NCBI RefSeq assembly: GCF_007991175.1
Contig: NZ_BJXV01000014.1
Coordinates: forward strand, 62,001-126,000
DNA length: 64,000 nucleotides
Source: Halovibrio variabilis
GTDB taxonomy: Bacteria > Pseudomonadota > Gammaproteobacteria > Pseudomonadales > Halomonadaceae
Direction of reading: 5' to 3'
Position 1 is the first letter of the stretch, and every line of letters begins with the position of its first letter. The notes under the pieces were generated by a model, which worked only from the letters and a program-made list of their open reading frames with translations, searched no databases and was not told where the DNA came from. The translations under genes and the position numbers were made by a program. Shown here one piece after another: positions 5,842-41,281 of the stretch.

Positions 5842-8715
5842 ATGCTAACACTCGGCCCCGATGACATCTTGCTTGGCCGCCACGCAGACAGCTGGCAAAT
5901 CGCTCTGGACAGTGCCGCTGAGGCGTTGGTAGACGCCGGATTCGTTGAGGCTGGCTACCGCGATGGCCTACACGCCCGCGAGGCGCAGTCATCAACGTTT
6001 TTAGGCAACACCATTGCGATCCCCCACGGTACGCCAGAAAGCCGCCAGCATGTGAAGCAAACGGGCGTGCGGGTACTGCAGTTTCCCCAAGGGATCGAGT
6101 GGCACGACGGCCAGCAGGTACACGTACTGGTAACCATCGCCGCACAGAACGATGAGCACCTTGATATCTTACGCCAGCTCACCCACGTTCTGGATCGCGA
6201 AGGCGTTGCGGAACAGCTGGCCGGCGCCACTTCGGCCGATGATGTAGCGCGGCTACTTTCCAAACCAACGTTAGAACCCCGCCTGGATGCTGAAACCCTG
6301 TGCGTCAACTTTCCGGCTCGCGACCCACAAGAACTCGCCCTGGCCGCCGCCGCTCGCTTACGTCAATGCGGCTGTGTCGATAACAGTTTTATTACCGGCG
6401 TCGCTGCGGCGCAGCCGACCTGGTTAGGCAAAGGACTCTGGCTGACCAGCAGCGACCAGGGCGTGAATCAGCCAGCGCTTGGGGTTGCCACGCCTGCTGA
6501 ACAATCCCTGGAAAGCGCTGGCCATCCAATACATGCGTTGTTTTGTTTAGCTGCTCACGGCGATGCCCACCGCCCGCTGCTAGAGCAACTGATGGCAGTG
6601 ATAGAAAACGGTGAAAGCCAGAGCCTAGTGGGCAAAACCAGCGCGCAACTGCTAGCCTCCCTGGCAGGAGAGACTGCCAATACACACACCCATCGCGTTA
6701 GAGTTCTTAATACGCACGGCCTGCACGCCCGCCCGGCGAAACAGCTGGTGCAGGTGGCTCGCGCCCAGCACATGCCAATTAATGTACGCCTGGAAGAAGG
6801 CAGCGCGACGCCGGTTTCCGCGGCTAGCCTAACCAAAGTAATTGGTTTGGGCGCACGACGTGGCCAGTGGCTGGTGCTGTCAGCCGAAGGGGAGCAAGCA
6901 AGCGAAGCCTTAGAGGCCGTCGCCGCTGCGGTTGAAGACGGCCTGGGTGAGAAAGTATCGCCGTTTGACGGTGGGCGCGAAGACAACGCCATTGTTGATA
7001 CGCAAGCAGCACCCAGCGTGGCGCCATTAGCCAGCGATACGCCCCACGTTGGGGTAGCCGCGTCCCCTGGTTTAGCGATCGCGCCGGTGTTTGTGATTCG
7101 TCCGCTGACATTTGACTATCCCCAGCACGCCGACGATCCAGAGCATGAGTTGGTCCGCCTGCGCGAGGCATTAAAAGTGGCGGGTACCCAGCTGCAGACC
7201 CTCGTGCACAACGCCCCTGGCGCTGAGGTTGCCGATATTCTCTCGATGCACGAGGAAATACTCGACGACCCCGAGCTTTACCAGGCGGCGGCAGAAGGCA
7301 TTCGCGATGGTTTATCGGCTCAGGCCGCCTGGTGGGAAGCCATTGAAACCGCGGCCCACGCCCAAGAGATGCTCGCCGACCGCCTGCTTGCCCAACGCGC
7401 GGCCGACCTGCGCGACGTCGGCCGCCGGGTGCTTGGCGTGCTCTGCGATGTCAGCCTTCCCGAACCGCCGGATCACCCCTACATTCTGGTCATGGACGAT
7501 ATCGGCCCTTCCGATGTCGCTCGCCTGGATACGTCGCGGGTACGCGGCCTGCTTACCGTACGCGGCGGCGCCACCGCCCACAGCGCTATTCTCGCCCGCG
7601 CCCTGGGCATTCCTGCCGTCGTCGGCGCGGGCCAAGCGGTGATGACACTCAATAACGGCAGTATGATGATTCTGGACGGCGAGCGCGGCCGAGTGACACC
7701 GCAGCCTTCAGAGGAACGCTTACTGCGTGCTGAGAAACAGCTGCAAGAGCACCAGCAGCGTGAAGCCGATGCCTGGGAAACACGCTTTGAGATCGCCCAA
7801 ACCCGGGATGGCCATCGAGTCGAAGTCGCGGCGAATTTAGGCAACACCGCCCACGCCGCCGATGCGGTAGAGCGCGGCGCCGAAGGCGTTGGCCTGCTAC
7901 GCACCGAATTTCTGTTTATGGCCCACGCCAGTGCACCGGACTTGGCCACCCAAATTGGCGAGTACCGCCAGGCGATTGATGCCCTGGAGGGCCGCCCGCT
8001 GGTCGCGCGCACCCTGGACGTCGGCGGCGACAAACCGCTGCCCTACTGGCCTGTGCCCCACGAAGACAATCCCTTCCTGGGCCTGCGTGGCATTCGCTTA
8101 GCGCTGACCCAACCCGACGTACTGGAAACTCAGCTACGCGCCCTGCTGATGGCCAGCACCAACCAGCCGCTGCGTATCATGCTGCCGATGGTCAAAGACA
8201 TCGCCGAATTCCGCGCGGTTAAAGCGATTTATGATCGCTTATTAACTGAAATCGCCCCCTCTCAGCGTGCTACCGATGTGCAATTAGGGGTGATGATTGA
8301 AATCCCCTCCAGCGCGCTGCTGGCGCCAAGCCTTGCCGCCGAGGTGGACTTTTTCTCGGTGGGCACCAACGACTTGACCCAGTACACCCTGGCCATCGAC
8401 CGTGGCCACCCGGAGCTTTCGGCCAGTGCCGATGGTTTACACCCCGCAGTGCTGCGTTTAATTCAAATGACCGTGGCAGCTGCCCACACCCAAGGCAAAT
8501 GGGTCGGCGTATGCGGCGAATTAGCCTCAGACGCCGTGGCCATTCCGGTGCTGGTAGGCCTGGGCGTCGACGAGCTCTCCGTCAGCGCGCGGCAGATTCC
8601 GCTGGTCAAAGCCCGCCTGCGCGAGTTTGACTTCGCGGACGCTCAGGTCAGTGCGCAATTGGCGCTCTCCCAAGCGACCAGCGACGAAGTGCGTGATGCC
8701 CTGGAGGCGCGCTAA
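5842..8715 (+). CDS. fruB: Fructose PTS multiphosphoryl transfer protein (EIIA-Fru / HPr / Enzyme I fusion)
   Basis: 957-residue cytosolic phosphorelay protein carrying the complete soluble part of the fructose PTS. EIIA-Fru occupies about residues 1-145 with phospho-acceptor His62 in IPHGTP. A degenerate EIIA-like linker domain covers about 150-275. HPr covers about 284-370 with His295 in GLHARPA. Enzyme I covers about 400-957 with His580 in GGATAHSAILARALGIPAVVG, GVGLLRTEFL, a C-terminal VGTNDLTQY and VCGELASD. E. coli FruB lacks the Enzyme I part, whereas pseudomonads and relatives have this full fusion. The ATG at 5842 has an AGGAGA site. The stop overlaps the fruK start (TAATG), indicating translational coupling. 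Confidence 0.96.
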   Translation: MLTLGPDDILLGRHADSWQIALDSAAEALVDAGFVEAGYRDGLHAREAQSSTFLGNTIAIPHGTPESRQHVKQTGVRVLQFPQGIEWHDGQQVHVLVTIAAQNDEHLDILRQLTHVLDREGVAEQLAGATSADDVARLLSKPTLEPRLDAETLCVNFPARDPQELALAAAARLRQCGCVDNSFITGVAAAQPTWLGKGLWLTSSDQGVNQPALGVATPAEQSLESAGHPIHALFCLAAHGDAHRPLLEQLMAVIENGESQSLVGKTSAQLLASLAGETANTHTHRVRVLNTHGLHARPAKQLVQVARAQHMPINVRLEEGSATPVSAASLTKVIGLGARRGQWLVLSAEGEQASEALEAVAAAVEDGLGEKVSPFDGGREDNAIVDTQAAPSVAPLASDTPHVGVAASPGLAIAPVFVIRPLTFDYPQHADDPEHELVRLREALKVAGTQLQTLVHNAPGAEVADILSMHEEILDDPELYQAAAEGIRDGLSAQAAWWEAIETAAHAQEMLADRLLAQRAADLRDVGRRVLGVLCDVSLPEPPDHPYILVMDDIGPSDVARLDTSRVRGLLTVRGGATAHSAILARALGIPAVVGAGQAVMTLNNGSMMILDGERGRVTPQPSEERLLRAEKQLQEHQQREADAWETRFEIAQTRDGHRVEVAANLGNTAHAADAVERGAEGVGLLRTEFLFMAHASAPDLATQIGEYRQAIDALEGRPLVARTLDVGGDKPLPYWPVPHEDNPFLGLRGIRLALTQPDVLETQLRALLMASTNQPLRIMLPMVKDIAEFRAVKAIYDRLLTEIAPSQRATDVQLGVMIEIPSSALLAPSLAAEVDFFSVGTNDLTQYTLAIDRGHPELSASADGLHPAVLRLIQMTVAAAHTQGKWVGVCGELASDAVAIPVLVGLGVDELSVSARQIPLVKARLREFDFADAQVSAQLALSQATSDEVRDALEAR

Positions 8716-9686
8716 TGGCCCGCGTGCTGTGCATTACGCTCAACCCAGCGCTGGATTTGGCGTTTAACCTTGATGCCCTGGTAGTAGGCAGCGTCAACCG
8801 CCCCAACAGCGCGCAGTTAGAAGCCGCAGGCAAAGGCGTTAACGTTGCCCGGGTATTGGCAGGCCTTGGCCACGTCGTTACCGTTAGCGGCTTTTTAGGT
8901 GCCGATAACGAGGCGCCCTTTCAGCTGGCGTTTGCCAAGTACTCGCTAGCAGACGCCTTTGTGCGCGTGCCGGGGGAAACCCGTATTAACGCCAAAATTG
9001 CTGAACAGAGCGGTCGCATCACCGACATTAACGGCCCCGGCATGCCGGTTGACGCCACGCATTTGCAGGCGTTGATCAACACCCTTGATACCGAGCTTGC
9101 CAGCACGACACCGCCACAAGCCGTCGTTCTAGCGGGCAGCCTGCCCCCGGGGCTGTCACTGGACGACTTCAGCAAGCTATTAAAGCATTTAAACGCCAGC
9201 GGCGTGCCGCTGTGGGTGGATACCAGCGGTCCAGCGCTTAATGTTGCCATCGCAACGCATCCTGCGGGCGTTAAACCCAACGAAACCGAGCTTGCCGAAT
9301 GGGCAGGTGAAGCGCTCGAAACCACTCCGACGCGCCTACGCGCTGCTACACGATTACATCACAGCGGCGTGGAGCACGCGTTAATTTCTGCGGGTGCTGA
9401 CGGCGTGCTGTGGGTTAATGCGCAAGGTGCCTGGCACGCTACGCCGCCCAAGGTCACCGCGACCAATACCGTTTGCGCTGGCGATACTTTTGTCGCTGGC
9501 ATCCTCCACGGCCTGCTGAGTGGCCATGCCCCCGAGCACACCCTTCGCTTTGCCACCGCGCTTTCTGCCGAAGCAGTGCGCCACATTGGTGTGGGCAACC
9601 CCCACGCTGCCGATTTCGATTCACTCCAACAACACACCCGGATACGGCGTCTTGATGACACCATCACCGAGGGAGCCACGCTATGA
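8715..9686 (+). CDS. fruK: 1-phosphofructokinase
   Basis: 323-residue PfkB-family kinase that phosphorylates the fructose-1-phosphate delivered by FruA to fructose-1,6-bisphosphate. The N-terminal ITLNPALD and the GKGVNVARVLAGLG substrate-binding motif are present. The PfkB signature includes catalytic Asp257 in CAGDTFVAG. Length is normal for FruK. The ATG overlaps the fruB stop by one base and the gene's own TGA overlaps the fruA ATG by four, so the three genes form one coupled operon. Confidence 0.95.
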   Translation: MARVLCITLNPALDLAFNLDALVVGSVNRPNSAQLEAAGKGVNVARVLAGLGHVVTVSGFLGADNEAPFQLAFAKYSLADAFVRVPGETRINAKIAEQSGRITDINGPGMPVDATHLQALINTLDTELASTTPPQAVVLAGSLPPGLSLDDFSKLLKHLNASGVPLWVDTSGPALNVAIATHPAGVKPNETELAEWAGEALETTPTRLRAATRLHHSGVEHALISAGADGVLWVNAQGAWHATPPKVTATNTVCAGDTFVAGILHGLLSGHAPEHTLRFATALSAEAVRHIGVGNPHAADFDSLQQHTRIRRLDDTITEGATL

Positions 9687-11419
9687 ACATTATTCTGATT
9701 ACCGCCTGCCCCAGCGGCATGGCGACCACGTTCCTCGCGGCCAAGCGCCTGGAGCAAGCCGCCCAGCGCCAAGGCTGGACAGTGCATGTGGAAATGCACG
9801 CTGAAATAGCCCCGCTGCAAGCCGCCACTGCCGAGCAGATCGCCAACGCCGATTTAATCGTCGTCGCGGCTGATTACGTGCCAGCCCCGGAACGCTTTGA
9901 AGGCAAGCGGCTCTTCCAGGCGCCTATCGCCAGCGCCCTTCCCGACCCCAGCGCGTTCCTGGCTCAGGCCAAGCGTGAAGCACCTATCTACACGGCGCCT
10001 ACTGCCACGCCCACCGCCGTTGACGCCAGCAAGCCGGGCGGCAAGAAGATTGTTGCCGTCACCGCCTGCCCCACCGGCGTGGCCCACACCTTTATGGCCG
10101 CTGAAGCGCTAGCAGAGGCAGGTAAAGCCATGGGCCACGCCATTCGCGTGGAGACCCAAGGCTCGGTAGGCGCACAAGCTCAGTTGACCGAAGCAGAGAT
10201 CGCCGAAGCAGACGTGGTGCTGCTGGCCTGCGATATCGAAGTCGATCCTACTCGCTTCGCTGGCAAGCGCGTTTATCGCACCTCTACCAGCAACGCATTG
10301 AAGAAGCCACAACCTACCATTGAGGCCGCGCTGGAAAATGCGGCGTTAGAGAGCAGCGGTTCAGCCAACGCCGCCAGCGACACTAAGAGCGTCAAAGAGA
10401 AAGGCGTTTATAAGCACCTGCTCACCGGCGTTTCCTTTATGCTGCCGATGGTAGTAGCGGGCGGCCTGCTGATTGCACTTTCCTTTGTGTTTGGCATCGA
10501 GGCTTTTGAACAGGAAGGCACCCTGGCCGCCGCGCTAATGCAGATCGGTGGCGGCACCGCCTTTGCCCTGATGATTCCAGTACTGGCAGGCTACATTGCC
10601 TATTCCATCGCCGATCGCCCCGGCATTGCGCCGGGTATGATTGGCGGCATGCTGGCGTCCAATATCGGCTCCGGGTTTATCGGCGGTATTTTGGCGGGCT
10701 TTCTGGCGGGCTATGTGGCGCTGGCCGTTACTCGCTATGTCAAACTGCCCTCTAGCATTGAATCCCTGAAGCCGATTCTGATCATTCCGCTAGTGGCCAG
10801 TTTGGTTACCGGCCTAACCATGATCTACGTGATTGGCGAACCGGTCGCCGCACTGCTCAATGGCCTGACCAGCTTCCTGGAATCCATGGGCTCCACCAAC
10901 GCGGTGCTACTGGGCATTCTGCTGGGGGCGATGATGTGCTTTGACCTGGGTGGCCCGGTCAATAAAGCCGCCTACACTTTTGGCGTGGGTCTGCTCGCCT
11001 CAGAAACCTACGGCCCCATGGCAGCGATTATGGCGGCGGGCATGGTGCCTGCCATTGGTATGGGCATTGCCAGTTTTGTCGCCAGTCGCAAGTTCTCTGA
11101 ACCCGAGCGGGAAGCGGGTAAAGCCTCGTTCGTACTTGGCCTATGCTTTATTAGCGAAGGCGCGATCCCCTTTGCGGCCAAAGATCCGCTACGGGTCATT
11201 CCTGCCTGTATCGTGGGCGGTGCGCTAACCGGCGCGCTCTCTATGCTGGTCGGTGCGCAGCTAATGGCGCCCCACGGCGGCATCTTTGTGCTGCTGATTC
11301 CCAACGCCATTACCCCGGTGCTGCTCTACCTTGGCGCCATTGTGGCAGGCTCGCTGGTCACCGGATTGGGCTACGCCTTTATCAAGCGCGGTGCTGCCCC
11401 AGTAGCCGTTGCCACTTAA
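9683..11419 (+). CDS. fruA: Fructose PTS permease, EIIB'BC
   Basis: 578-residue membrane transporter that imports fructose as fructose-1-phosphate. It has two EIIB modules in tandem: residues 1-100 with Cys9 (ITACPSGMATTF) and residues 121-225 with Cys129 (VTACPTGVAHTF). A linker of about 15 residues follows, then an EIIC domain from about residue 240 with eight or more hydrophobic segments and the GGPVNKAAYTFG motif. The second EIIB has the canonical CPTGVAHT phosphorylation loop; the first is the less conserved B' copy seen in E. coli FruA. It overlaps fruK by 4 bp. A perfect hairpin lies 22 bp after the stop. Confidence 0.95.
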   Translation: MNIILITACPSGMATTFLAAKRLEQAAQRQGWTVHVEMHAEIAPLQAATAEQIANADLIVVAADYVPAPERFEGKRLFQAPIASALPDPSAFLAQAKREAPIYTAPTATPTAVDASKPGGKKIVAVTACPTGVAHTFMAAEALAEAGKAMGHAIRVETQGSVGAQAQLTEAEIAEADVVLLACDIEVDPTRFAGKRVYRTSTSNALKKPQPTIEAALENAALESSGSANAASDTKSVKEKGVYKHLLTGVSFMLPMVVAGGLLIALSFVFGIEAFEQEGTLAAALMQIGGGTAFALMIPVLAGYIAYSIADRPGIAPGMIGGMLASNIGSGFIGGILAGFLAGYVALAVTRYVKLPSSIESLKPILIIPLVASLVTGLTMIYVIGEPVAALLNGLTSFLESMGSTNAVLLGILLGAMMCFDLGGPVNKAAYTFGVGLLASETYGPMAAIMAAGMVPAIGMGIASFVASRKFSEPEREAGKASFVLGLCFISEGAIPFAAKDPLRVIPACIVGGALTGALSMLVGAQLMAPHGGIFVLLIPNAITPVLLYLGAIVAGSLVTGLGYAFIKRGAAPVAVAT

Positions 11420-11441
11420 CGGCTTTTAGCAAAAAAGTGAA

Positions 11442-11462
11442 GGGCAGGCATCTCGCCTGCCC
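11442..11462. terminator. GC hairpin downstream of fruA
   Basis: GGGCAGGC-atctc-GCCTGCCC forms an 8-bp stem right after fruA. The plus-strand tail (TCACAAAA) has no U run, while on the minus strand the stem is followed by CTTCACTTTTTT. It probably acts as a 3' stabilising or processing hairpin for the fru mRNA. As an intrinsic terminator it would work better for minus-strand transcripts. Confidence 0.5.
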
Positions 11463-11535
11463 TCACAAAAGTCGGTAGTTTTAAGCAGCTAACTCCTTCC
11501 CAGCACAAATACCCTCCACTCTTTGTCACTTTTTA

Positions 11536-11550
11536 TGTAGTATTTTTACA
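11536..11550. promoter_or_regulatory. HexR-like operator upstream of pgi
   Basis: TGTAGTATTTTTACA matches the HexR consensus TGTARTWWWATTACA at 14 of 15 positions and sits 58 bp before the pgi start. Its left arm TGTAGTA is identical to that of the site before pyk, supporting shared control of the two glycolytic genes. Confidence 0.6.
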
Positions 11551-11607
11551 TAACCTACTTTTTCGATTTTTGATCACCTAATTCATCTACAACAAACGGA
11601 TCGCCTT

Positions 11608-13275
11608 ATGTTTCAGCTCACTCGCAGTGTTACCTGGCAGGCGCTTGAGCGCCTGCGCGATAAAACCGCCAACGACCGCATTCGTGACTATTTCACCAAT
11701 GACCCGCAGCGCTTTGAGAAAATGAGCTTACGGGTGGGGGGGCTGTTTCTTGACTACTCCAAGCACCACGTCTCAGATGAAGTGCTCGCCAAGCTGATTG
11801 AGCTGGCCGACCACTCCGCGCTGGTACAGCGCCGCGCACAGATGTTCTCGGGCGATATTATCAACGTCACCGAGAACCGCCCGGTACTGCATACCGCTCT
11901 GCGCCACTTAGGCGATGAGCCGGTCTATGTGGACGGCGAAGACGTCATGCCTGAAATTACTCGCACTCGCGAACAGATCAAGCTTTTCTCGGAAGCAGTG
12001 CGTAGCGGCGAGTGGAAAGGCTACAACGGCCAGCGCATCAAGGACGTGGTCAATATCGGCATAGGCGGCTCGGACCTTGGCCCCAATATGGCGGTGCGTG
12101 CGCTGCTCAAGTACCGCCACCCGGAGCTGCACTTCCACTTCGTTTCCAACGTGGACGGTACCCATATTCAGAAGGTGCTTTCGCGGCTCGACCCGGCGAC
12201 TACGCTGTTTATCGTCTCGACCAAAACCTTCTCTACCCAGGAAACGCTGCTCAACGCCAAAACCGCGCGCCGCTGGTTCCTGGAGAATGCCGGGGAAGAC
12301 GCCGATGTGGGCGCGCACTTTATTGCCGCTTCCACCAACCGCAAAGCGGCGATGGAGTTCGGTATTCGCGAAGAGAACGTATTCGAGTTCTGGGCCTGGG
12401 TGGGCGGGCGATACTCCATGTGGTCATCCATCGGCCTGCCGATTGCGCTTTCGATTGGTTTTGAAGGCTTTATCGAGCTGCTGGAAGGCGCCCAGGAAAT
12501 GGATAACCATTTCATCAATGCGCCCTTTTCACAAAATATGCCGGTACTGATGGCGCTGATTGGCATTTGGTACATCAACTTTATTGGCGCCGAGACCCAA
12601 GCTATCGTGCCCTACGACCAGGCCTTGAACCAGCTGCCCTCTTTCCTGCAGCAGCTGGATATGGAGTCTAACGGTAAGTCGGTGGATATTTTCGGCCACC
12701 CGGTGAACTATAAAACCGGCCCGATTGTATGGGGGCAAACCGGTTCCAACGGCCAGCATGCATTCTTCCAGCTACTGCACCAAGGCACCCGCTACGTGCC
12801 TATCGACTTTATTGCCTCGCTCAAGCCCGAGCCCGGCATGGAAGACCACCATTTTGCCCTGCTGACCAACATGCTCGCCCAGGCCAACGCCTTCATGGAA
12901 GGCAGCCAAGGGGACAGCAAAGAGCTAAGCCAGCATGACCCCTACAGCTGCCCCGGCAACCGTCCTTCCAGCACCCTACTGCTGGACGAGCTAACGCCGA
13001 AAAATCTGGGCGCGCTGATAGCACTTTATGAACACAAGGTATTCGTTCAAGGGGTAATCTGGAACATCAACTCCTTTGACCAGTGGGGTGTGCAGCTCGG
13101 CAAGCGTATCGCCGGTGAAATCAGCGAACGCATCGACACCAACGCCGCTGACTTCGATGCCTCCACCCAAGGCCTGCTGGAACTGGTTCGTGCGCACTTC
13201 CCCAATGGCGGCAGCGGCGAACAGGAAAGCGTACCGGCCAATGCCGATAAGAAGCCGGCGAGGAAAAAGCACTAA
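11608..13275 (+). CDS. pgi: Glucose-6-phosphate isomerase
   Basis: 555-residue cytosolic enzyme interconverting glucose-6-phosphate and fructose-6-phosphate. Family signatures are all present: IGIGGSDLGPNMAVRAL, SKTFSTQETLLNA, GGRYSMWSSIGLP, QLDMESNGK (catalytic Glu region), GQHAFFQLLHQGTRYVP (His) and SFDQWGVQLGK (Lys). Length matches the long bacterial form. The start ATG at 11608 has only a weak ribosome site. The last 25 residues are a Lys-rich tail of no known function. A strong plus-strand terminator follows. Regulation by the HexR-like site is inferred. Confidence 0.95.
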   Translation: MFQLTRSVTWQALERLRDKTANDRIRDYFTNDPQRFEKMSLRVGGLFLDYSKHHVSDEVLAKLIELADHSALVQRRAQMFSGDIINVTENRPVLHTALRHLGDEPVYVDGEDVMPEITRTREQIKLFSEAVRSGEWKGYNGQRIKDVVNIGIGGSDLGPNMAVRALLKYRHPELHFHFVSNVDGTHIQKVLSRLDPATTLFIVSTKTFSTQETLLNAKTARRWFLENAGEDADVGAHFIAASTNRKAAMEFGIREENVFEFWAWVGGRYSMWSSIGLPIALSIGFEGFIELLEGAQEMDNHFINAPFSQNMPVLMALIGIWYINFIGAETQAIVPYDQALNQLPSFLQQLDMESNGKSVDIFGHPVNYKTGPIVWGQTGSNGQHAFFQLLHQGTRYVPIDFIASLKPEPGMEDHHFALLTNMLAQANAFMEGSQGDSKELSQHDPYSCPGNRPSSTLLLDELTPKNLGALIALYEHKVFVQGVIWNINSFDQWGVQLGKRIAGEISERIDTNAADFDASTQGLLELVRAHFPNGGSGEQESVPANADKKPARKKH

Positions 13276-35900: not shown

Positions 35901-36579
35901 CGGTGGCCCACTCTACGTCAACCGCTTCCGTCGCACCGCAGACGCCGAGCACGTTGAGGCGCCAGAAGGAAAAGCCGTTTCACTTGGCGATCTTCAATCG
36001 GCGCTTGATGGGCTGGATGCGCGTAACTGGGCGGTACGTCCCAATCGCATCGAGGTGCTGCGCAAGGCGCTCTCCGGCAAAGGCGGCGTGATCCGCAAGG
36101 CACTCAATGAGACGGCCGCGCTGGACATGACGTCGCAGACGCTGCCGGGGCCGACGGGCGAAAGCAACCGCCTGGCGATGTATCCGAAAGGAGTGGTGCT
36201 GTGCCTCGGGCCAACTCTGGATATCGCCATCGCGCAAGCAGCCCAGGCCCTCGGCGCGGGCTGTGCGGCCGTCGTGGTCACGACAGGTGCCGAGCAGGCG
36301 GTGAAGCCACTGATTGACGCCGGCGCGCCAGTGGTCGGGCTTGATGGCAGCGTTTCAGCAGAGACACTGAGCGAGGTCAAAGGCATTGCAGCGGTCGCCG
36401 CTGCTGGCGCCAGCGACTGGACCCGCGAACTGCGCATTGCGCTGGCCAAGCGCGACGGCGCCATCATCTCGCTCGAGACCCAGACTATCTCGCCGGATCG
36501 CTACGTGGTGGAACGTCACCTATGTATCGACACCACCGCAGCGGGCGGCAACGCCAGCCTGTTGGCAACGGCCGAATAG
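32905..36579 (+). CDS. putA: Bifunctional proline dehydrogenase / P5C dehydrogenase without DNA-binding domain
   Basis: 1224 residues. Proline dehydrogenase (FAD, about 185-485) oxidises proline to pyrroline-5-carboxylate, using motifs such as VRLVKGAYWDTEI and YPQFATHNAHT. The aldehyde dehydrogenase domain (about 575-1020) makes glutamate, with Glu790 (AETGGLNS) and Cys824 (SAGQRCSALRM). A C-terminal domain of about 190 residues follows, as in long PutA forms. The ribbon-helix-helix repressor domain found at the start of E. coli PutA (1320 residues) is absent, so this protein does not repress its own genes. Its base composition is more GC-rich than its neighbours'. Confidence 0.95.
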   Translation: MNEANPHLHNLHSDVSDLRSRIRTNYDANEADVLHGLVERIKLSEDDRQKVAAEGANYVARVRKERSPSMMEAFLAEYGLSTTEGVGLMCLAEALLRVPDAETIDDLIHDKIEPSDWGAHLGKSSSSMVNASTWALLLTGKVLEEDPKGPTRALRGLVRRMGEPVVRRAVGQSMKILGRQFVLGQTIDEGMKNARELEKQGYTYSYDMLGEAARTDDDALRYHQAYAEAITAIAKQAKGDVRGSPGISVKLSALHPRYEYTHRDTVMAELLPRAKELVQQAAKANIGFNIDAEEQDRLDLSLDVIEALMADPSLDGWDGFGVVVQAYGRRAAPMIETLYELAERFDRKIMVRLVKGAYWDTEIKLSQEMGVKTFPVFTRKVNTDVSYMACAQMLLDRRDRIYPQFATHNAHTCAAVVAMAGDDKDSYEFQRLHGMGESLHHIVKETEGAHCRIYAPVGAHRDLLAYLVRRLLENGANSSFVNQVVDSSIPPSEVSKDPIEGFKQLGNDVSSPLIRQPGELFEPERKNSKGYRINEPASILPLLEAREAFADATWTAGPMLVGNPAPQGPARDAVSPADGSRVVGKVHEATPEEVTTALDAAEQGFKEWSARPAAERAAVLRRTADLYEEHIAELTVITTREAGKMMFDGIAEVREAVDFLRFYANEGERLDAEEPGSARGIFVCISPWNFPLAITTGQIAAALVAGNAVLAKPAEQTPLIAARAVELMREAGLPEAALQLLPGDGPTVGGPLTSDPRIAGVCFTGSTPVAQIIHKALAENAGPDAILIAETGGLNSMIVDSTALTEQAVRDILISSFQSAGQRCSALRMLYVQEEARDRLLNMLYGAMDALTIGDPWNTDTDVSPVIDADAQADISDYVATQEKNGKVLKKLPAPDTGTFVTPAVVEVSGIEDLEREIFGPVLHVATFKARDIDKVVDDINGKGYGLTFGLHTRIDDRVQQIVERIHVGNVYVNRNQIGAIVGSQPFGGEGLSGTGPKAGGPLYVNRFRRTADAEHVEAPEGKAVSLGDLQSALDGLDARNWAVRPNRIEVLRKALSGKGGVIRKALNETAALDMTSQTLPGPTGESNRLAMYPKGVVLCLGPTLDIAIAQAAQALGAGCAAVVVTTGAEQAVKPLIDAGAPVVGLDGSVSAETLSEVKGIAAVAAAGASDWTRELRIALAKRDGAIISLETQTISPDRYVVERHLCIDTTAAGGNASLLATAE

Positions 36580-36701
36580 GTTGTTGCCTTAGTGGTTGGT
36601 GCTTAGGAACAGGTGCTTAGGAGGCGAGCGGCTCATTGAAGTCGCTTGCCCTCCTCCCGCACTCAGCAAATGCTGATCACTGTCTCAGCGATCCATCATT
36701 A

Positions 36702-36726
36702 GCCACTACTCGTTAGTGGCTTTTTT
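36702..36726 (+). terminator. Rho-independent terminator after putA
   Basis: GCCACTA-ctcgt-TAGTGGC is a perfect 7-bp stem followed directly by six T residues, 122 bp after the putA stop. The accessory cassette region begins about 45 bp further on. Confidence 0.9.
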
Positions 36727-36783
36727 GTATCTGGCAGCCGGGATTTACGGAGGATTACCCTGCAATTTGTTAAATGCTCACTT

Positions 36784-36805
36784 GAATGCGCATTCCAGTG
36801 CGCAT
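36784..36805 (+). promoter_or_regulatory. ccdAB operator-promoter region
   Basis: GAATGCGCATTC (36784-36795) is a perfect 12-bp palindrome, and TGCGCAT recurs 12 bp later (36799-36805). The elements lie 40-60 bp before the ccdA start and overlap plausible -35/-10 sequences (TTGAAT, CATAAT, although only 15 bp apart). CcdA-type antitoxins repress their own promoter, so this is a candidate site. Confidence 0.45.
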
Positions 36806-36845
36806 AATCTGTAATAATGTTGGTCACAACTCTGTGGAGGGAAAA

Positions 36846-37091
36846 ATGCCAGAACTTTACGATACAGCCGCACCCAGAAAGGCAGCGAACCTGTCGGTGA
36901 ACAGTGACCTCCTAAACAAGACCCGCGCTCTGAACATTAACCTTTCAGCCACCCTTGAGCGGGCGCTGAAGGAAGAGCTTGCGAAACGAGAGGCCGCTCA
37001 ATGGGTCGAAGAAAACCGTAGTGCGATCAAGAATTATAACGAATTCGTTGAGCAACATGGGTGCTTTGGCGACGAATTTCGGGAGTTTTGA
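36846..37091 (+). CDS. ccdA: CcdA-like antitoxin
   Basis: 81 residues. The N-terminal ribbon-helix-helix (RKAANLSVNSDLLNKTRALNINLSATLERALKEEL) binds DNA. The C-terminal segment (AAQWVEENRSAIKNYNEFVEQHGCFGDEFREF) is the disordered toxin-wrapping part typical of CcdA. ATG 36846 has a GGAGGG site and the TGA overlaps the ccdB ATG by one base (TGATG). It sits inside the integron-type cassette array, transcribed opposite to the neighbouring cassettes from its own promoter. Confidence 0.9.
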   Translation: MPELYDTAAPRKAANLSVNSDLLNKTRALNINLSATLERALKEELAKREAAQWVEENRSAIKNYNEFVEQHGCFGDEFREF

Positions 37092-37408
37092 TGGCACAAT
37101 TCGACGTTTACCCTAACCCAAGTAAAACCAGCAAAGCGCACTACCCTTACCTGATAGATATTCAAAGCGCCCTTCTGACCGACTTGGCAACTCGTATCGT
37201 TATCCCTTTGGGGAGGAGCGCTGCTTTTGGCGAACAGGCCATGCGGGGCCTCACGCCAGAGGTAACGTTCAACGATCAGACGTTGCTCTTGCTCACTCCG
37301 CAAATTTCCTCGGTGCCAAAAAAGCACCTAAAGAATCCCGTCGGCTCCCTCTCGCACTTCAGAGATCACATTATTGCCGCACTGGATCTCGCGGTCACTG
37401 GCATTTAA
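37091..37408 (+). CDS. ccdB: CcdB-like gyrase-poisoning toxin (chromosomal type)
   Basis: 105 residues of the CcdB family (YPYLIDIQSALLTDLATRIVIPLGR, LTPQISSVPKKHL). F-plasmid CcdB ends in Trp-Gly-Ile, where the tryptophan stacks in gyrase; here the end is Thr-Gly-Ile and the protein has no Trp at all. It resembles the Vibrio chromosomal type, which ends similarly. The stop codon falls inside the ATTTAAC box of the adjacent attC-like site, as if the gene were trimmed to fit the recombination site. Confidence 0.9.
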   Translation: MAQFDVYPNPSKTSKAHYPYLIDIQSALLTDLATRIVIPLGRSAAFGEQAMRGLTPEVTFNDQTLLLLTPQISSVPKKHLKNPVGSLSHFRDHIIAALDLAVTGI

Positions 37409-37460
37409 CGCTTCGAAACAGCGGCGAGTTTACGAGTCCGACTGCTTTTGATCGTTATGT
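37403..37460 (-). repeat. attC-like recombination site 3
   Basis: 58 bp. On the minus strand it starts with ACATAAC (37460-37454) and ends with GTTAAAT (37409-37403). The inner part pairs AAAGCAG-t-CGG with CCG-CTGTTT, with an unpaired base. It overlaps the last codons of both ccdB and the DUF6680-like gene. ACATAAC departs from the RYYYAAC consensus at one base. Confidence 0.65.
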
Positions 37461-38041
37461 GACTCTGCTTCCGGCACAGGGTCAATAGGTTGGTAGGGTG
37501 GTAGGTATGTAACCGCCATTGGAAAGGATCTTCGCCCTTCCAAGATACCAACGATCCCTTCTCTTATCTTGGTTTGATCTCTTTCAATTTTTCCGTGCGC
37601 TATCGGGCTATAACAATCCCGCTTCAGCTGGACTTCATCAAAGTCATAACCTAAGGACTGAGACATGGCATACAGTAAAGACGTAAATAGCTCAGCCCCT
37701 TTCTCTATCCATGCGTCTAGACGTTCATCAGGTACGCTGTTATTCAGATGATCGTTATAGATTTTCCATGCGTTCGTGACTTTCCTGTCAGCTTCCGATT
37801 GCCAGCGTTTACCGAAGTATTTCTTCCCGTAGAATTCCAGGTCTATCATGTTTAGAGCTGAAACGTGTGGCCCTGAAAGCCTAGTAGCCCGTGTCTCCAT
37901 CAGGGTATGGAAGATTTGAAGTTTTCTTTGCTTTCGGTCTCGTATGCTCTCGACCATTTTTTGCGCTTGGACAGCCAGAATTGGCCCAGCGATGATCGCG
38001 CAAACGGTAATCCAATCTTTGATTTCCATGTTCAAATCCAT
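37430..38041 (-). CDS. DUF6680-like membrane-anchored protein
   Basis: 203 residues. The N-terminus MEIKDWITVCAIIAGPILAVQAQKMVESIRDRKQRKLQIFHTLMETRA resembles proteins annotated DUF6680, with a single hydrophobic helix at about 10-28, then a soluble helical domain (LNMIDLEFYGKKYFGKRWQSEADRKVTNAWKIYNDHL). Function is unknown. ATG 38041 is preceded by GAGG; a second start (38029) is possible. Its 3' end runs into attC 3 and its start lies 16 bp from attC 2, so it is one cassette. The cargo-type setting suggests a stress or defence role, which is inference. Confidence 0.7.
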   Translation of the reverse strand: MDLNMEIKDWITVCAIIAGPILAVQAQKMVESIRDRKQRKLQIFHTLMETRATRLSGPHVSALNMIDLEFYGKKYFGKRWQSEADRKVTNAWKIYNDHLNNSVPDERLDAWIEKGAELFTSLLYAMSQSLGYDFDEVQLKRDCYSPIAHGKIERDQTKIREGIVGILEGRRSFPMAVTYLPPYQPIDPVPEAESHNDQKQSDS

Positions 38042-38056
38042 ACTGACCTCTTGGGC

Positions 38057-38126
38057 ACATAACGTTCAAGGTCAGGGGCGCTGCGCGGCCTCACTGCGCA
38101 GCGTCCCCTGCACCGCCAGGTTGGGC
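38057..38126 (-). repeat. attC-like recombination site 2
   Basis: 70 bp. On the minus strand the R'' box GCCCAAC (38126-38120) opens it and the GTTATGT box (38063-38057) closes it. The inner palindrome pairs CAGGGG-a-CGCTGCGC with GCGCAGCG-CCCCTG, with one extrahelical A as in functional attC sites, and TTGAAC precedes the closing box. The last 12 codons of the HNH gene lie within it. Confidence 0.82.
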
Positions 38127-39275
38127 ATCATCTGCATCATCGTCCAAAAAATCATCATCAATGTATTCGGCGTACTGCCGTTCGTAGGCAATTGCTGGCG
38201 TCTTATGCACCCATTTGTTGGGTTGAGCAATTAGAAGGGGACTTGCCCGAACTAGAGTGACCTTATCAGCTTGCAGTTCAACAGTACGTACAAGGCAATA
38301 GATGATGTAGCGATTCTTGCCACCAATTCGGGTGATGGCTGACATAGACATCATGAAGATGGGATCTAGTATCCATTCAATACGAAGATGCTTTCGTGAA
38401 TAGTGAAGAAGGATGGTCGGAGTGCTCGCAGTGATAGGCAGGTCCGGCCCTTTAGCACAGACACCGCCGATGAAGAACGCGTAATGCCCTTCGCTCGCCT
38501 TCAGGGCGGAATGCCCTGCGTTAGCCGTTTCATCTAGATCGATGAAGTTAGTCACCGTGGCAATCTGCTGCGTCAGTTGTTTGTAGTGCTCTGTCTCTTG
38601 GTGCGTGATGTAGTCGAATAGGTAGCGCCCTCCCGACAAGTGTGTCTGAACATACTTCTGGTCAAAGGAGCCACCAGCGCCCAAAATGCCTGCGCTGCGA
38701 AGGCTGGCTGTAAGCGTTGTTTGAGGTATCTTCTTGAAGAGACGAACACACAACTCTTCGATGCGTTTCACATTGACGTAGTCAATTGCATCGTCATTCA
38801 CGTCGATTAATTGCGCTGCTCTTTGCGCATTCGCCACCTCGACCTGTTTTTCCCACTTCGTTTTTGTTGTGCGCAGCTGAGATTCGGTGAGCCTTAGAGT
38901 CAGCCCGCCTTGGTGTGCGAGGTCGTGATCGACGGGGCAAAGGACAATAAGATTGTTGTAGGTGTTGTCCTGAGTCTTTTCGTATTCGACTATGTGGTGA
39001 ATGATGTAAGAAGGCCCCTTTTGACCTTTGCACACACTGCACACGAAGTTACTGCTTTCCAGCAGTAACTGAACAATTTGCTCGTCGATTGGTTCCCGCC
39101 GTACACAGTGGCTCAAGGTCTTCGCTTCAGCCTCGGAAAGACCGAACTTTGAAACCATATCCTTCTGGCTAAGTGACCTCGCCTTGGTCACAGTGAGCCC
39201 AGCTGAATTAGCTTTTTCGGCAAGATCGCTAGCAACACCGTATTGAAGCAGAGTACCTAGAGTGCGTGCATTCAT
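38091..39275 (-). CDS. HNH endonuclease domain protein
   Basis: 394 residues. The N-terminal 70 form a helical region. The HNH nuclease module is about residues 79-121: Cys79/Cys82 (CSVC), His93-His94, Asn108, Cys113, His117, His121 (VLCPVDHDLAH), matching a zinc-stabilised HNH fold. Residues 150-380 are an unrecognised domain (SAGILGAGGSFDQKY..., RIEWILDPIFMMSMSAITRIGG). The C-terminus is Asp/Gly-rich and encoded within attC 2. It is likely a DNA nuclease of unknown target. Being an integron-type cassette next to a toxin-antitoxin pair, it may belong to the restriction or phage-defence class, but that is inference. Confidence 0.78.
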   Translation of the reverse strand: MNARTLGTLLQYGVASDLAEKANSAGLTVTKARSLSQKDMVSKFGLSEAEAKTLSHCVRREPIDEQIVQLLLESSNFVCSVCKGQKGPSYIIHHIVEYEKTQDNTYNNLIVLCPVDHDLAHQGGLTLRLTESQLRTTKTKWEKQVEVANAQRAAQLIDVNDDAIDYVNVKRIEELCVRLFKKIPQTTLTASLRSAGILGAGGSFDQKYVQTHLSGGRYLFDYITHQETEHYKQLTQQIATVTNFIDLDETANAGHSALKASEGHYAFFIGGVCAKGPDLPITASTPTILLHYSRKHLRIEWILDPIFMMSMSAITRIGGKNRYIIYCLVRTVELQADKVTLVRASPLLIAQPNKWVHKTPAIAYERQYAEYIDDDFLDDDADDAQPGGAGDAAQ

Positions 39276-39307
39276 GGGGTCAGTCGCCTCGGAGCGAGTG
39301 TGTTGAT

Positions 39308-39367
39308 GCCCAACGCTAACCGTCAGCCGCGCGAGGTACGAGCGTCGGCTGCACAGGATGGTTAAAT
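39308..39367 (-). repeat. attC-like recombination site 1
   Basis: 60 bp. On the minus strand it opens with ATTTAAC (39367-39361) and closes with GTTGGGC (39314-39308), both matching the RYYYAAC/GTTRRRY consensus exactly. The central stem pairs CAGCCG-a-CGC with GCG-CGGCTG, leaving one unpaired A. It begins 2 bp after the lipoprotein stop and ends 32 bp before the HNH start. Confidence 0.85.
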
Positions 39368-39369
39368 TC

Positions 39370-39687
39370 TCAACACTGCTCCAGCGCTAAATCAATCATG
39401 GAACCTATATTGACTCTCACCCCTGGAATCTCAGGGTTTTCTCGCCAAATTGGATCTATAGGCGCATAGCCACTACTACGGGCAAAACCATTCAGTTGAT
39501 AGGACGTCCCGCCTGTCTTGAAGATCGCCGCCTGGCCATCAACACAATCCACAACTCCACTTTCTACAGTAAACGGCCAAGATTCCCCAAACTCGCCTTT
39601 TGAGACCTCTAAGCCTGAGCTGCTAGATTGCCCACAACCTGACAATGCAAACAAAATTACGACAATTAACGTGGTACGGATGTTCAT
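39370..39687 (-). CDS. DUF2511-like lipoprotein
   Basis: 105 residues from ATG 39687, which has a GGAG site. Residues 1-16 are a lipoprotein signal with lipobox LSGC (modification at Cys16), and a short Ser-rich linker (QSSSSG) follows. The body (GESWPFTVESGVVDCVDGQAAIFKTGGTSYQLNGFA) resembles DUF2511/YebY-type proteins with two Cys that may form a disulphide. It is probably a periplasmic lipoprotein of unknown role, and forms the outermost identified cassette of the array. Confidence 0.75.
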   Translation of the reverse strand: MNIRTTLIVVILFALSGCGQSSSSGLEVSKGEFGESWPFTVESGVVDCVDGQAAIFKTGGTSYQLNGFARSSGYAPIDPIWRENPEIPGVRVNIGSMIDLALEQC

Positions 39688-40231
39688 TCGTTTCTCCATG
39701 AATTTAACAGTTTATTTATAAGCATGCGTATTTTTCTAGAAAGTCTAACACCATAAAAACCTTCAAGGTATTGATAAGAATGGAAAATCACCAATCCCCA
39801 ATGCAAACCACGCTAGAAAAAAGCGCATGCTCATAATCACTTATGACCATCTTTTCGCATTGCCTATAAGCACGGCATATTTTTTACAACCAGCTGTTTT
39901 AATTCGTTTTTATAAAAAAATCCGGAAAATTTGAGCATGCCGCTTGCTGAGCGTACCAGAAAAACACGCATTACGGACTCAAAATACTGCTTATAGCTGT
40001 GCATATACCCATGCTAATTGGGTACCCAAATGGCCAGCAGCCCGCTCCTGAGTTAGGCTTCCCCGCCCCCCTCCCTCCTAATAACGTTTGTCTAATAACC
40101 CTTGCCCTGGATCAATAATCCACTCCCTGGGTCTCGTTACACTTGTTTCATCGTTAAGCGGCTATCGAATGGCCGCCCAGCTTTGCAACTAGTCATTTGA
40201 AACTGTCTGTTTTAACACCTGGAGTGAACCC
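39688..40231. other. 544-bp AT-rich intergenic region
   Basis: No gene is seen. The region is clearly more AT-rich than the flanks, holds several GCATGC-containing palindromes (39722, about 39828, about 39936) and a candidate cassette box GTCTAAC at 39743-39749. The ompW promoter presumably lies in its last 150 bp. It may be decayed cassette DNA. Confidence 0.5.
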
Positions 40232-40855
40232 ATGCGTAAAGCCGCCCTTTCCACCTTACTCGTTTCCAGCATTGCCGCTGCGGCATTGATGACCAGCAGC
40301 CAGGCATTTGCTTATGGCGCGGGTGACTTTTTTACCCGCGTGGGTATTGCGAAAGTGGACCCGAAAAGCAATAACGGTGAGATCTTAGGCGCCGATGTTA
40401 ATGTCGATGCGGAATCGAATTTTGCCTTCACTCTGGGCTATCGCTTCCACGATAAGATGGGCGTCGAGCTGTTGGCCGCGCTACCCTTCAAACACGACCT
40501 GCAGGTGGAAGGCGTGACCGATGGCTCTACCAAGCATCTGCCGCCTACCCTCACGCTACAGTACTACCCGCTAGGGGGTACCGAGGCCCGTGTTCAGCCT
40601 TATGTCGGCGCCGGTATTAACTACACCCGCTTCTCTGACGAAAAAACCGATATCGGCGCGTCATTGGAACTTGACGACTCCTGGGGCGCTGCGGGTCAGG
40701 TAGGTGTGGACCTGCTGATTGATGAACATTGGGCGTTCAATGCGGCGGCCTGGTATATCGATATCGATGCCGACGCCAAAGTAGGCGGCGCAGACGCTGG
40801 CAGCGTTGAGATCGACCCTGTCGTGGTCATGGCAGGCCTCAGTTACCGCTTCTAG
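40232..40855 (+). CDS. ompW: OmpW-family outer membrane protein
   Basis: 207 residues with a clear signal peptide (residues 1-27, cleavage after SSQAFA). It is an eight-stranded beta-barrel protein of the OmpW/AlkL type, ending in Phe as outer membrane proteins do (AGLSYRF). Conserved segments are LGYRFHDKMGVELLAALPFKHD and PTLTLQYYPLGG...VQPYVGAGINYT. OmpW proteins pass small hydrophobic molecules. ATG 40232 has a GGAG site at ideal spacing. A bidirectional hairpin follows the gene. Confidence 0.93.
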   Translation: MRKAALSTLLVSSIAAAALMTSSQAFAYGAGDFFTRVGIAKVDPKSNNGEILGADVNVDAESNFAFTLGYRFHDKMGVELLAALPFKHDLQVEGVTDGSTKHLPPTLTLQYYPLGGTEARVQPYVGAGINYTRFSDEKTDIGASLELDDSWGAAGQVGVDLLIDEHWAFNAAAWYIDIDADAKVGGADAGSVEIDPVVVMAGLSYRF

Positions 40856-40892
40856 GCCGCCTGTAAAACCACCGTTTTAGCTGTTATCCCCA

Positions 40893-40917
40893 AAGCCTGC
40901 CTTTCTGGCAGGCTTTT
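40893..40917 (+). terminator. Terminator after ompW
   Basis: AAGCCTGCC-tttct-GGCAGGCTT is a perfect 9-bp stem followed by TTTTCG on the plus strand, 38 bp after ompW. The opposite side is followed by TTTGGGG on the minus strand, so it may also end the convergent YqcC transcript weakly. Confidence 0.8.
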
Positions 40918-40948
40918 CGTTACTAAGATCCTACGCAGCTCTTCCCTT

Positions 40949-41281
40949 TCAGCTCTCCGTGACAATCTGATCGACCTTCTCCACCGCGCGAACGACGAGC
41001 AGCTGGTGGTGGGCGGGTGTTTTTTCCTGCTGCAAATAGGCCGCCACGGCGGGCGCCACCTCGCACTTGGCGGGCATGGCAGCATTCGCATCAATCAAAG
41101 CGTTCAAACGGGCAATAAACACAAAGCGGATCCACTGGGGAAGCGACATGGTGTCGATACAAAACGGCTGCTGGCTTGCAAATGCGTCTGCGTCCGGTCT
41201 TGGCATACGCCACAAATCGGCGGCTTTCATCGAAGCTTCAAGCTCTAAAAGCGCGGTTTGCAGCGGCTGATAAGTACTCAT
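40949..41281 (-). CDS. YqcC-family protein
   Basis: 110 residues from ATG 41281. The pattern LQTALLELEASMKAADLW... PFCIDTMSLPQWIRFVFIARLNALIDANAAMPAKCEVAPAVAAYL matches YqcC (DUF446) proteins, which are small, helical and of unknown function and often lie near pseudouridine synthase genes. Here it lies alone, divergent from the DUF3549 gene, with a region holding DnaA-box-like sequences between them. Confidence 0.85.
   Translation of the reverse strand: MSTYQPLQTALLELEASMKAADLWRMPRPDADAFASQQPFCIDTMSLPQWIRFVFIARLNALIDANAAMPAKCEVAPAVAAYLQQEKTPAHHQLLVVRAVEKVDQIVTES

Follow-up and report, generated by a model that had tools for sequence, protein, structure and literature searches.

We analysed a 64-kb stretch of DNA, hereafter the window, in which a gene for a 394-residue HNH protein lies on the minus strand within an array of attC-like sites. 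Read along that strand, the order is a DUF2511 lipoprotein gene, attC 1, the HNH gene, attC 2, a DUF6680 gene, attC 3, a ccdAB pair in the opposite orientation and then putA, so that the HNH gene is flanked by two attC-like sites, attC 1 and attC 2. The features of the array, by window coordinates, are as follows.

39370..39699, minus strand: DUF2511 lipoprotein-like protein, the upstream cassette ORF (PF10709, E = 3.8e-11)
39308..39367, minus strand: attC 1, the attC of the DUF2511 cassette, 60 nt (R'' ATTTAAC, R' GTTGGGC)
38091..39275, minus strand: coding sequence of the HNH gene, specifying a 394-residue protein of predicted HhH-HNH-OB-like make-up (ATG start, TGA stop; ORF intact)
38057..38126, minus strand: attC 2, the attC of the HNH cassette, 70 nt (R'' GCCCAAC, R' GTTATGT)
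37430..38041, minus strand: DUF6680 protein, the downstream cassette ORF (PF20385, E = 1.2e-53)
37403..37460, minus strand: attC 3, the attC of the DUF6680 cassette, 58 nt (R'' ACATAAC, R' GTTAAAT)
36786..37408, plus strand: ccdA-ccdB toxin-antitoxin pair, inverted relative to the other cassettes (PF07362, E = 5.9e-30; PF01845, E = 5.7e-33)
36769..36775, minus strand: R''-like box (ATTTAAC) of a degenerate fourth attC beyond the inverted ccdAB cassette

An earlier note on this DNA had placed the HNH gene between two attC sites, with its last 12 codons encoded by attC 2, and this held: attC 2 starts at nucleotide 1149 of the coding sequence, and the last 12 codons, stop included (AQPGGAGDAAQ*), are attC sequence. 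Because Rfam gave no match at gathering score in the window, and none at E ≤ 1 for positions 36000–41000, the attC sites were tested by structure and core matching. A cassette of circular origin must begin, at its 5' end, with the core-site half that pairs with its own R'' box. All four cassette 5' ends (GTTAAAT, GTTGGGC, GTTATGT and GTTAAAT) proved exactly complementary to their own R'' box at 7 of 7 bases, in an array of four consecutive cassettes that contains three different core sequences. When the R'' boxes were reassigned among the cassettes, only 2 of 24 assignments did equally well, since two of the boxes are identical. A scan of the full 64 kb for attC sites passed on both strands only at the three cassette junctions, with single-strand-only passes at three further places (17494, 59234 and 61610). 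No R' was seen beyond the R'' box of the fourth cassette, the inverted ccdAB. With a core site upstream, its own attC downstream and a 5' end complementary to its own R'', the HNH ORF qualifies as an integron-type gene cassette.

Other parts of the array also drew our attention. The stop codon of the inverted ccdAB cassette falls in attC 3, with the degenerate attC behind it. The DUF6680 gene (37430–38041) is itself a cassette gene, and no mention of its family was found in the literature searched. Just upstream of the first cassette lies a 24-nt inverted repeat (88%), with arms at 39716–39739 and 39813–39836 and 73 nt between them, which is possibly an attI relic or a regulatory region.

The same note had treated the cassette as one of a mobile integron, a view that we reject because the source genome contains no integrase above cut-off. 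In this 3.73-Mb genome, a draft assembly of 48 contigs in which a missed intI is unlikely but possible, the best score against the integron integrase profile TIGR02249 was 77 bits versus a cut-off of 265, and the two best matches are genes that we read as Xer-type recombinases. The definition in the available passages of the IntegronFinder 2.0 paper (PMC9024848) describes a CALIN as at least two attC sites without an integron integrase. With three attC-like sites and no intI above cut-off, the array is integrase-less, chromosomal and CALIN-like, an assignment made by that definition and our own attC scan.

The array occupies a chromosomal gap between putA and ompW (36579–40232); in relatives that share this gene order, the gap is empty or contains different genes. 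OmpW-type genes were present in all 82 genomes of the genus, and we examined the 30 loci returned. Eight of these carried the window-type putA end beside ompW in the fetched stretch, with gaps ranging from 211 bp (locus L087) to about 1.0 kb (L099); nine of the other 22 were read further, and ten longer stretches were fetched in all. In eight of the ten, ompW adjoins a transporter-like ORF of 491–496 residues (or an ORF called over it), preceded by a longer PutA-like ORF that matches the putA query only partly, indicating that the gap is absent there in the same form. The remaining two keep the gap with other genes in it: in one (genome G009, locus L122) a near-identical ccdAB (ccdA 97.5%; ccdB in two pieces) adjoins putA and is followed by other ORFs, and in the other (G046, L123) there are six small ORFs. 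Our attC scan returned nothing in the former and one single-strand candidate in the latter. The putA-ompW gap is variable within the genus.

Within the encoded protein, four regions can be delimited (all on the minus strand).

39087..39266, minus strand: residues 4–63, predicted helix-hairpin-helix (HhH) domain of RAD51/RadA N-terminal type (profile and model)
38910..39041, minus strand: residues 79–122, HNH motif, CxxC...HH...N...CxxxH...H (Pfam PF01844)
38202..38549, minus strand: residues ~243–358, predicted OB-fold-like domain (C-terminal model, moderate confidence)
38127..38168, minus strand: residues ~370–383, acidic C-terminal tail, found in several homologues too (alignment)

The HNH module previously noticed in this 394-residue protein was recovered by Pfam (PF01844, residues 79–122, E = 2.1e-6, 28.2 bits versus a gathering score of 21.4). 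Its eight motif residues (C79, C82, H93, H94, N108, C113, H117 and H121) were present in all 12 aligned sequences, comprising the window protein and 11 homologues, indicating that the nuclease site is intact. PF01844 accounts for 44 of the 394 residues and was the sole Pfam match, with none to SAVED. PADLOC profiles gave four matches, all weak; the best, at E = 1.6e-4, spans 54 of the 253 positions of its profile. They are limited to the HNH region and the sequence directly following it, and none extends over most of its model, as a match to a known PADLOC system should. The sole NCBIfam match was to IscB (E = 4.9e-6), an identity that we reject at 25.9 bits versus a cut-off of 175.

An AlphaFold2 model of the whole protein, built from four sequences, was poor (mean pLDDT 55, pTM 0.44), too poor for a structural comparison of the HNH part. 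Residues 1–60 are among its better-modelled parts (block pLDDT 63–83), and here the N-terminal domain of a RAD51 paralogue matched with Z 7.6 and an rmsd of 1.7 Å over 54 residues (26% identity), ranking above RadA, Dmc1 and NusA. A profile of nine relatives matched the HhH repeats of Topoisomerase V at positions 17–69, with a whole-sequence E of 0.0028 and no single stretch that passed by itself; the profile of a distant subfamily on its own reached only E = 0.32. Taken from model and profile, there is good support for a predicted HhH fold of RAD51/RadA type at residues 4–63, a region on which the earlier note had not remarked.

Modelled alone, the C-terminal part (residues 156–380) reached a pLDDT of 67.6 and a pTM of 0.67. 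Foldseek matched this model to AspRS (E = 7.5e-4), with BrxL among the matches of larger rmsd, and VIA matched it to AsnRS (Z 7.1), Teb1 (6.9), RecG (6.9), MCM (up to 6.7) and RPA (6.5), all below Z 8, a range that unrelated models also reach. The matched structures, whose folds we take from general knowledge to be mostly OB, align mostly over residues ~243–358, at 4–15% identity among the matches listed. Neither SAVED nor CARF is among the structural matches listed for the C-terminal model, which is no exclusion of either. A library of viral folds gave nothing below E = 6e-4 and a mixture of proteins, some of them single-stranded DNA-binding proteins (SSBs). In the alignment, N168, R171, S312 and A313 of the C-terminal part are invariant (12 of 12). 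The C-terminal part thus modelled likely holds an OB fold, with moderate confidence, and its predicted fold suggests nucleic-acid recognition.

The architecture had been called unrecognised, and profile searches and structure prediction of the C-terminal part had been proposed. In Pfam that description stands, with no match outside the HNH region; it no longer fits residues 4–63, which resemble the RAD51/RadA HhH domain in the model, or residues ~243–358, for which structure prediction yielded an OB-like fold at moderate confidence.

We searched for relatives in genomes, plasmids and viruses. With the window protein as query, the only match among the 82 genomes of the genus, and again among the 369 of the class, was the source genome itself; the same query matched 8 of 398 genomes of the genus of one homologue (locus L002, recorded as Pseudomonas sp.; E ≤ 1e-6, its own genome included) and 3 of 72,556 plasmids. 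A collection of 50,697 phage records gave no match, a DNA search of E. coli genomes no relative, and a genome-contig search that depends on short exact peptides two relatives from 14 pattern matches. The nine-row profile (A5) matched 17 of the 398 genomes of the L002 genus at E ≤ 1e-8, with at most four candidates scored per genome: seven matches are nearly full-length, eight cover the HNH alone, one (G984) combines the HNH and the C-terminus without an HhH, and one (G1107) is a C-terminal remnant with stops. Of 398 genomes of the phylum, 22 matched an N-terminal profile (A3); outside the source genome these matches cover the HNH part, and three of them extend somewhat further N-terminally (G748, 37–148; G728, 47–135; G813, 23–130, with a stop inside). 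In the family of Ideonella, 4 of 260 genomes matched, and the whole module was covered only in Ideonella itself.

Among the 11 loci from the viral collection, two were full-length (L054, 52%; L055, 49%) and nine were shorter stretches. In viral contigs, the single-protein query returned no relative, the N-terminal profile one HNH-only relative, and neither a degenerate HHIVEYE-type pattern nor the distant-subfamily profile any; the C-terminal profile recovered the same two contigs again (L054 and L055). The C-terminal part of the window protein alone found nothing in plasmids at E ≤ 1. With the full L055 protein as query, coverage was 91% over Bradyrhizobium homologues.

These searches also revealed how the protein is assembled in other lineages. 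On a conjugative plasmid of Pantoea (L004, 7983–9869), where the gene adjoins an integrase and a nucleotidyltransferase gene lies nearby, the first ~150 residues precede TPR repeats, and in Ideonella they precede an unrelated C-terminus, indicating that the HhH-HNH half is a module. The TPR and other C-termini on the same N-terminal module fit a swappable recognition module. A sensor role, suggested in the earlier note for the domain behind the HNH, drew no support from any of these results. At a further locus (L049, 8971–9936) the HNH is joined to the same C-terminal domain without the HhH, a further sign of module exchange.

Carriage with an attC is not the norm of the family, and we rejected it as such on finding no both-strand site at the homologue gene in any of the 11 homologue loci scanned (all but L054 and L055); the sole both-strand attC-like site among them, at 1563–1621 of L049, lies far from the homologue gene.

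Relatives were found on viral contigs and on plasmids, conjugative ones among them, as well as next to recombinases of transposon type. At the Pseudomonas sp. dw_358 locus (L002, homologue at 8001–9137), a serine resolvase lies upstream (Pfam, E = 1.2e-42), an adjoining KAP NTPase matches PADLOC PDC-S49 (E = 2.7e-26), and the recombinase-like ORFs downstream include one with a Phage_integrase match below cut-off, the others being so read by eye. At L047 the next ORF of at least 150 residues beside the homologue (10436–11821) joins a GrpB domain to a 4TM domain, with a CBASS-type effector match (E = 8e-59); GrpB, which we take to be nucleotidyltransferase-like, may be a nucleotidyltransferase partner in one chain with the 4TM domain. 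At L053 the homologue adjoins an AbiJ_NTD4 protein (PDC-S32, E = 8e-27), with PD-Lambda-5_A (E = 2e-247) also at the locus and a reverse transcriptase on the other side; L052 carries RmrT (E = 2e-18) and RmrA (E = 1e-128), L050 TnsB and a mad2-like gene (E = 2e-14), and L048 a DUF927 protein. An annotated nucleotidyltransferase gene two genes from the homologue at L004 reached only E = 9.6e-6 in PADLOC, and the neighbours scanned at L003 and L051 gave no strong PADLOC match. In the two viral contigs the homologues lie behind genes that we read by eye as lysis-type; in L055 the homologue and an adjoining DUF2971 gene (7971–10190) sit near the contig end and are followed by tRNA-Pro, and this position between lysis-type genes and a tRNA gene is likely a prophage cargo site.

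Of the 13 homologue loci, five (L002, L047, L053, L052 and L050) have defence-type genes no more than 9 kb away; the other eight, without a countable defence neighbour, include three (L005, L049 and L054) at which no neighbour was scanned, neighbours having been chosen by eye. Ten of the 26 neighbours scanned with PADLOC matched at E ≤ 1e-10, or seven after a reverse transcriptase, TnsB and a generic AAA protein were dropped, versus 0 of 20 control proteins (best E = 1.2e-7). The controls were hand-picked, two per place, from the 29 ORFs listed around ten randomly placed positions in five of the homologue-carrying genomes; some are central ORFs, some are likely spurious, and at one place (L124) the sequence runs into the margin of the L053 stretch, so that the contrast between neighbours and controls is indicative only.

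The expectation that a cassette of this kind would be stress or phage-defence cargo therefore meets mixed evidence: the integron-type cassette, the accessory, mobile carriage of relatives and the defence genes near some of them speak for it, and none of the four cassette neighbours in the window had a PADLOC match. Homologues embedded in housekeeping operons would have told against a defence role, and by eye no such operon was apparent at any homologue locus read.

We favour the reading that the protein is a single-gene anti-phage nuclease that recognises its phage-DNA target directly, to which we assign a probability of about 0.5; its activity, its target and its part in defence are what we infer from the features above. 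That DNA-binding parts are predicted on both sides of the HNH site suggests direct recognition of the substrate by the enzyme. In such an enzyme the HhH domain at the N-terminus would grip the backbone of duplex DNA, and the OB-like domain at the C-terminus would recognise some feature of phage DNA as it enters or replicates (single-stranded stretches, junctions or modified bases, for example), thereby bringing the HNH site onto the foreign DNA for a nick or cut. The first ~150 residues (HhH and HNH) would form a constant cutting module, to which other lineages would add TPR or other C-termini, and as the unit is complete in one gene it could travel in integron cassettes, prophages, plasmids and transposons. 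Carriage in a cassette adds little to this probability by itself. The accessible part of a review (PMC12409362) reports at least 16 anti-phage cassettes among 179 from V. cholerae and 9 among 57 from V. parahaemolyticus, a base rate at which carriage alone gives about 1 in 10; as some nine in ten of the V. cholerae cassettes were not found to be anti-phage in that account, carriage alone says little.

A more specific version, which we put forward tentatively, is a family of clamp-type one-gene anti-phage nucleases, in which the HhH domain would sit on duplex DNA, the OB domain and its acidic, SSB-like tail would engage single-stranded or junction DNA of replicating phage (or compete for partners of the phage SSB), and the HNH would cut between them. 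The HhH-HNH half would be reusable with swapped recognition halves (OB type, TPR type and others) and spread by integrons, prophages, plasmids and transposons.

Several rival explanations draw on the same observations. HhH and OB domains are common among DNA recombination and repair proteins, and relatives occur in viral contigs, plasmids and the vicinity of transposon-type genes, with recombinases adjoining some of them. This could point to a nuclease of mobile-element biology (recombination, repair or inter-element competition) rather than of phage defence. The carriers nevertheless differ widely in transfer mechanism, no partner gene common to the loci read was seen, and defence-type genes occur at five loci; we consider this explanation unlikely. 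Many free-standing HNH genes of phage genomes are homing enzymes, and with two relatives in viral contigs the protein might be a homing-type endonuclease that spreads by cutting empty sites; yet the copy in the window, an integron cassette that carries an attC of its own, has no need of homing, and the 50,697 phage records yielded no match, making this a weak and highly improbable rival.

Two further rivals would keep the protein in defence and differ in what the C-terminal domain recognises. If the protein were an effector nuclease gated by a second messenger or ligand, as in CBASS Cap5, a partner enzyme would make a signal whose binding to the C-terminal domain would unleash indiscriminate DNA cutting by the HNH, leading to abortive infection. 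Weak matches of the HNH region to CBASS HNH effectors and SAVED-HNH proteins, possible nucleotidyltransferase-type genes at two loci (the GrpB-4TM gene of L047, and L004) and the invariant polar residues N168, R171 and S312 are consistent with this scheme; however, no cyclase gene was seen in the window (by eye, with only the cassette neighbours profile-searched), and the C-terminal model gives OB folds rather than SAVED or CARF among the matches listed, and we regard such gating as quite unlikely. A methyltransferase beside the gene was likewise absent from the Pfam matches of the four cassette neighbours, on which ground we rejected Type II restriction; the same absence accords with a modification-dependent, Type IV-like nuclease resembling McrA, a narrower defence reading in which the C-terminal domain would bind modified phage bases, the HNH would cut nearby and self-protection would be unneeded. 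The combination of an HNH with a separate reader domain, a weak HNH match to McrA (6ghc, E = 0.51) and the reduced Type II and IV restriction genes reported for integrons in the part of the review available to us (PMC12409362) count in its favour. Against it, no known modified-base reader was matched, the best C-terminal folds are OB and the McrA match is confined to the HNH, so that we hold this reading, too, to be improbable.

We thus read the window protein as an HNH nuclease of mobile elements, probably acting in phage defence, whose combination of domains was not found described. The CxxC...CxxxH pattern is shared with the Pfam HNH family (PF01844), with the rest of the protein outside Pfam. 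Residues 4–63 are predicted to fold like the N-terminal HhH domain of RAD51/RadA, and also like the C-terminal HhH of NusA and the Topoisomerase V repeats; in RAD51/RadA, however, a RecA ATPase follows the HhH, where the window protein has an HNH instead. The fold predicted for residues ~243–358 resembles the anticodon-binding OB domain of AspRS and AsnRS and those of RPA and Teb1, although the gene has no synthetase context. CBASS HNH effectors (Cap5 and SAVED-HNH) have a weakly similar HNH core, likewise placed before a C-terminal domain, whereas the window protein has an extra N-terminal HhH and a C-terminal domain not recognised as SAVED. In the phage-defence cassettes of chromosomal and mobile integrons (Darracq et al. 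2025; Kieffer et al. 2025), known to us through passages of PMC12409362 and the references of PMC13092281, the unit is likewise a single small cassette-borne gene. PADLOC (2023), Pfam and NCBIfam contain no model for the HhH-HNH-OB-like architecture, a literature search, in which coverage of subscription journals was thin, found no description of an HhH-HNH family, and none of the DefensePredictor passages on HNH and integrons that were available describes this architecture.

If the protein is protective, it would represent a defence gene of ~1.2 kb contained in one cassette, of a kind absent from PADLOC (2023), in which a constant cutter is combined with exchangeable recognition parts. Such a system would bring a further mechanism, in which HhH and OB domains read the structure of the target, to the set of small defence genes in integrons that are currently being screened, and would make other integrase-less cassette clusters of environmental bacteria worth reading for defence genes.
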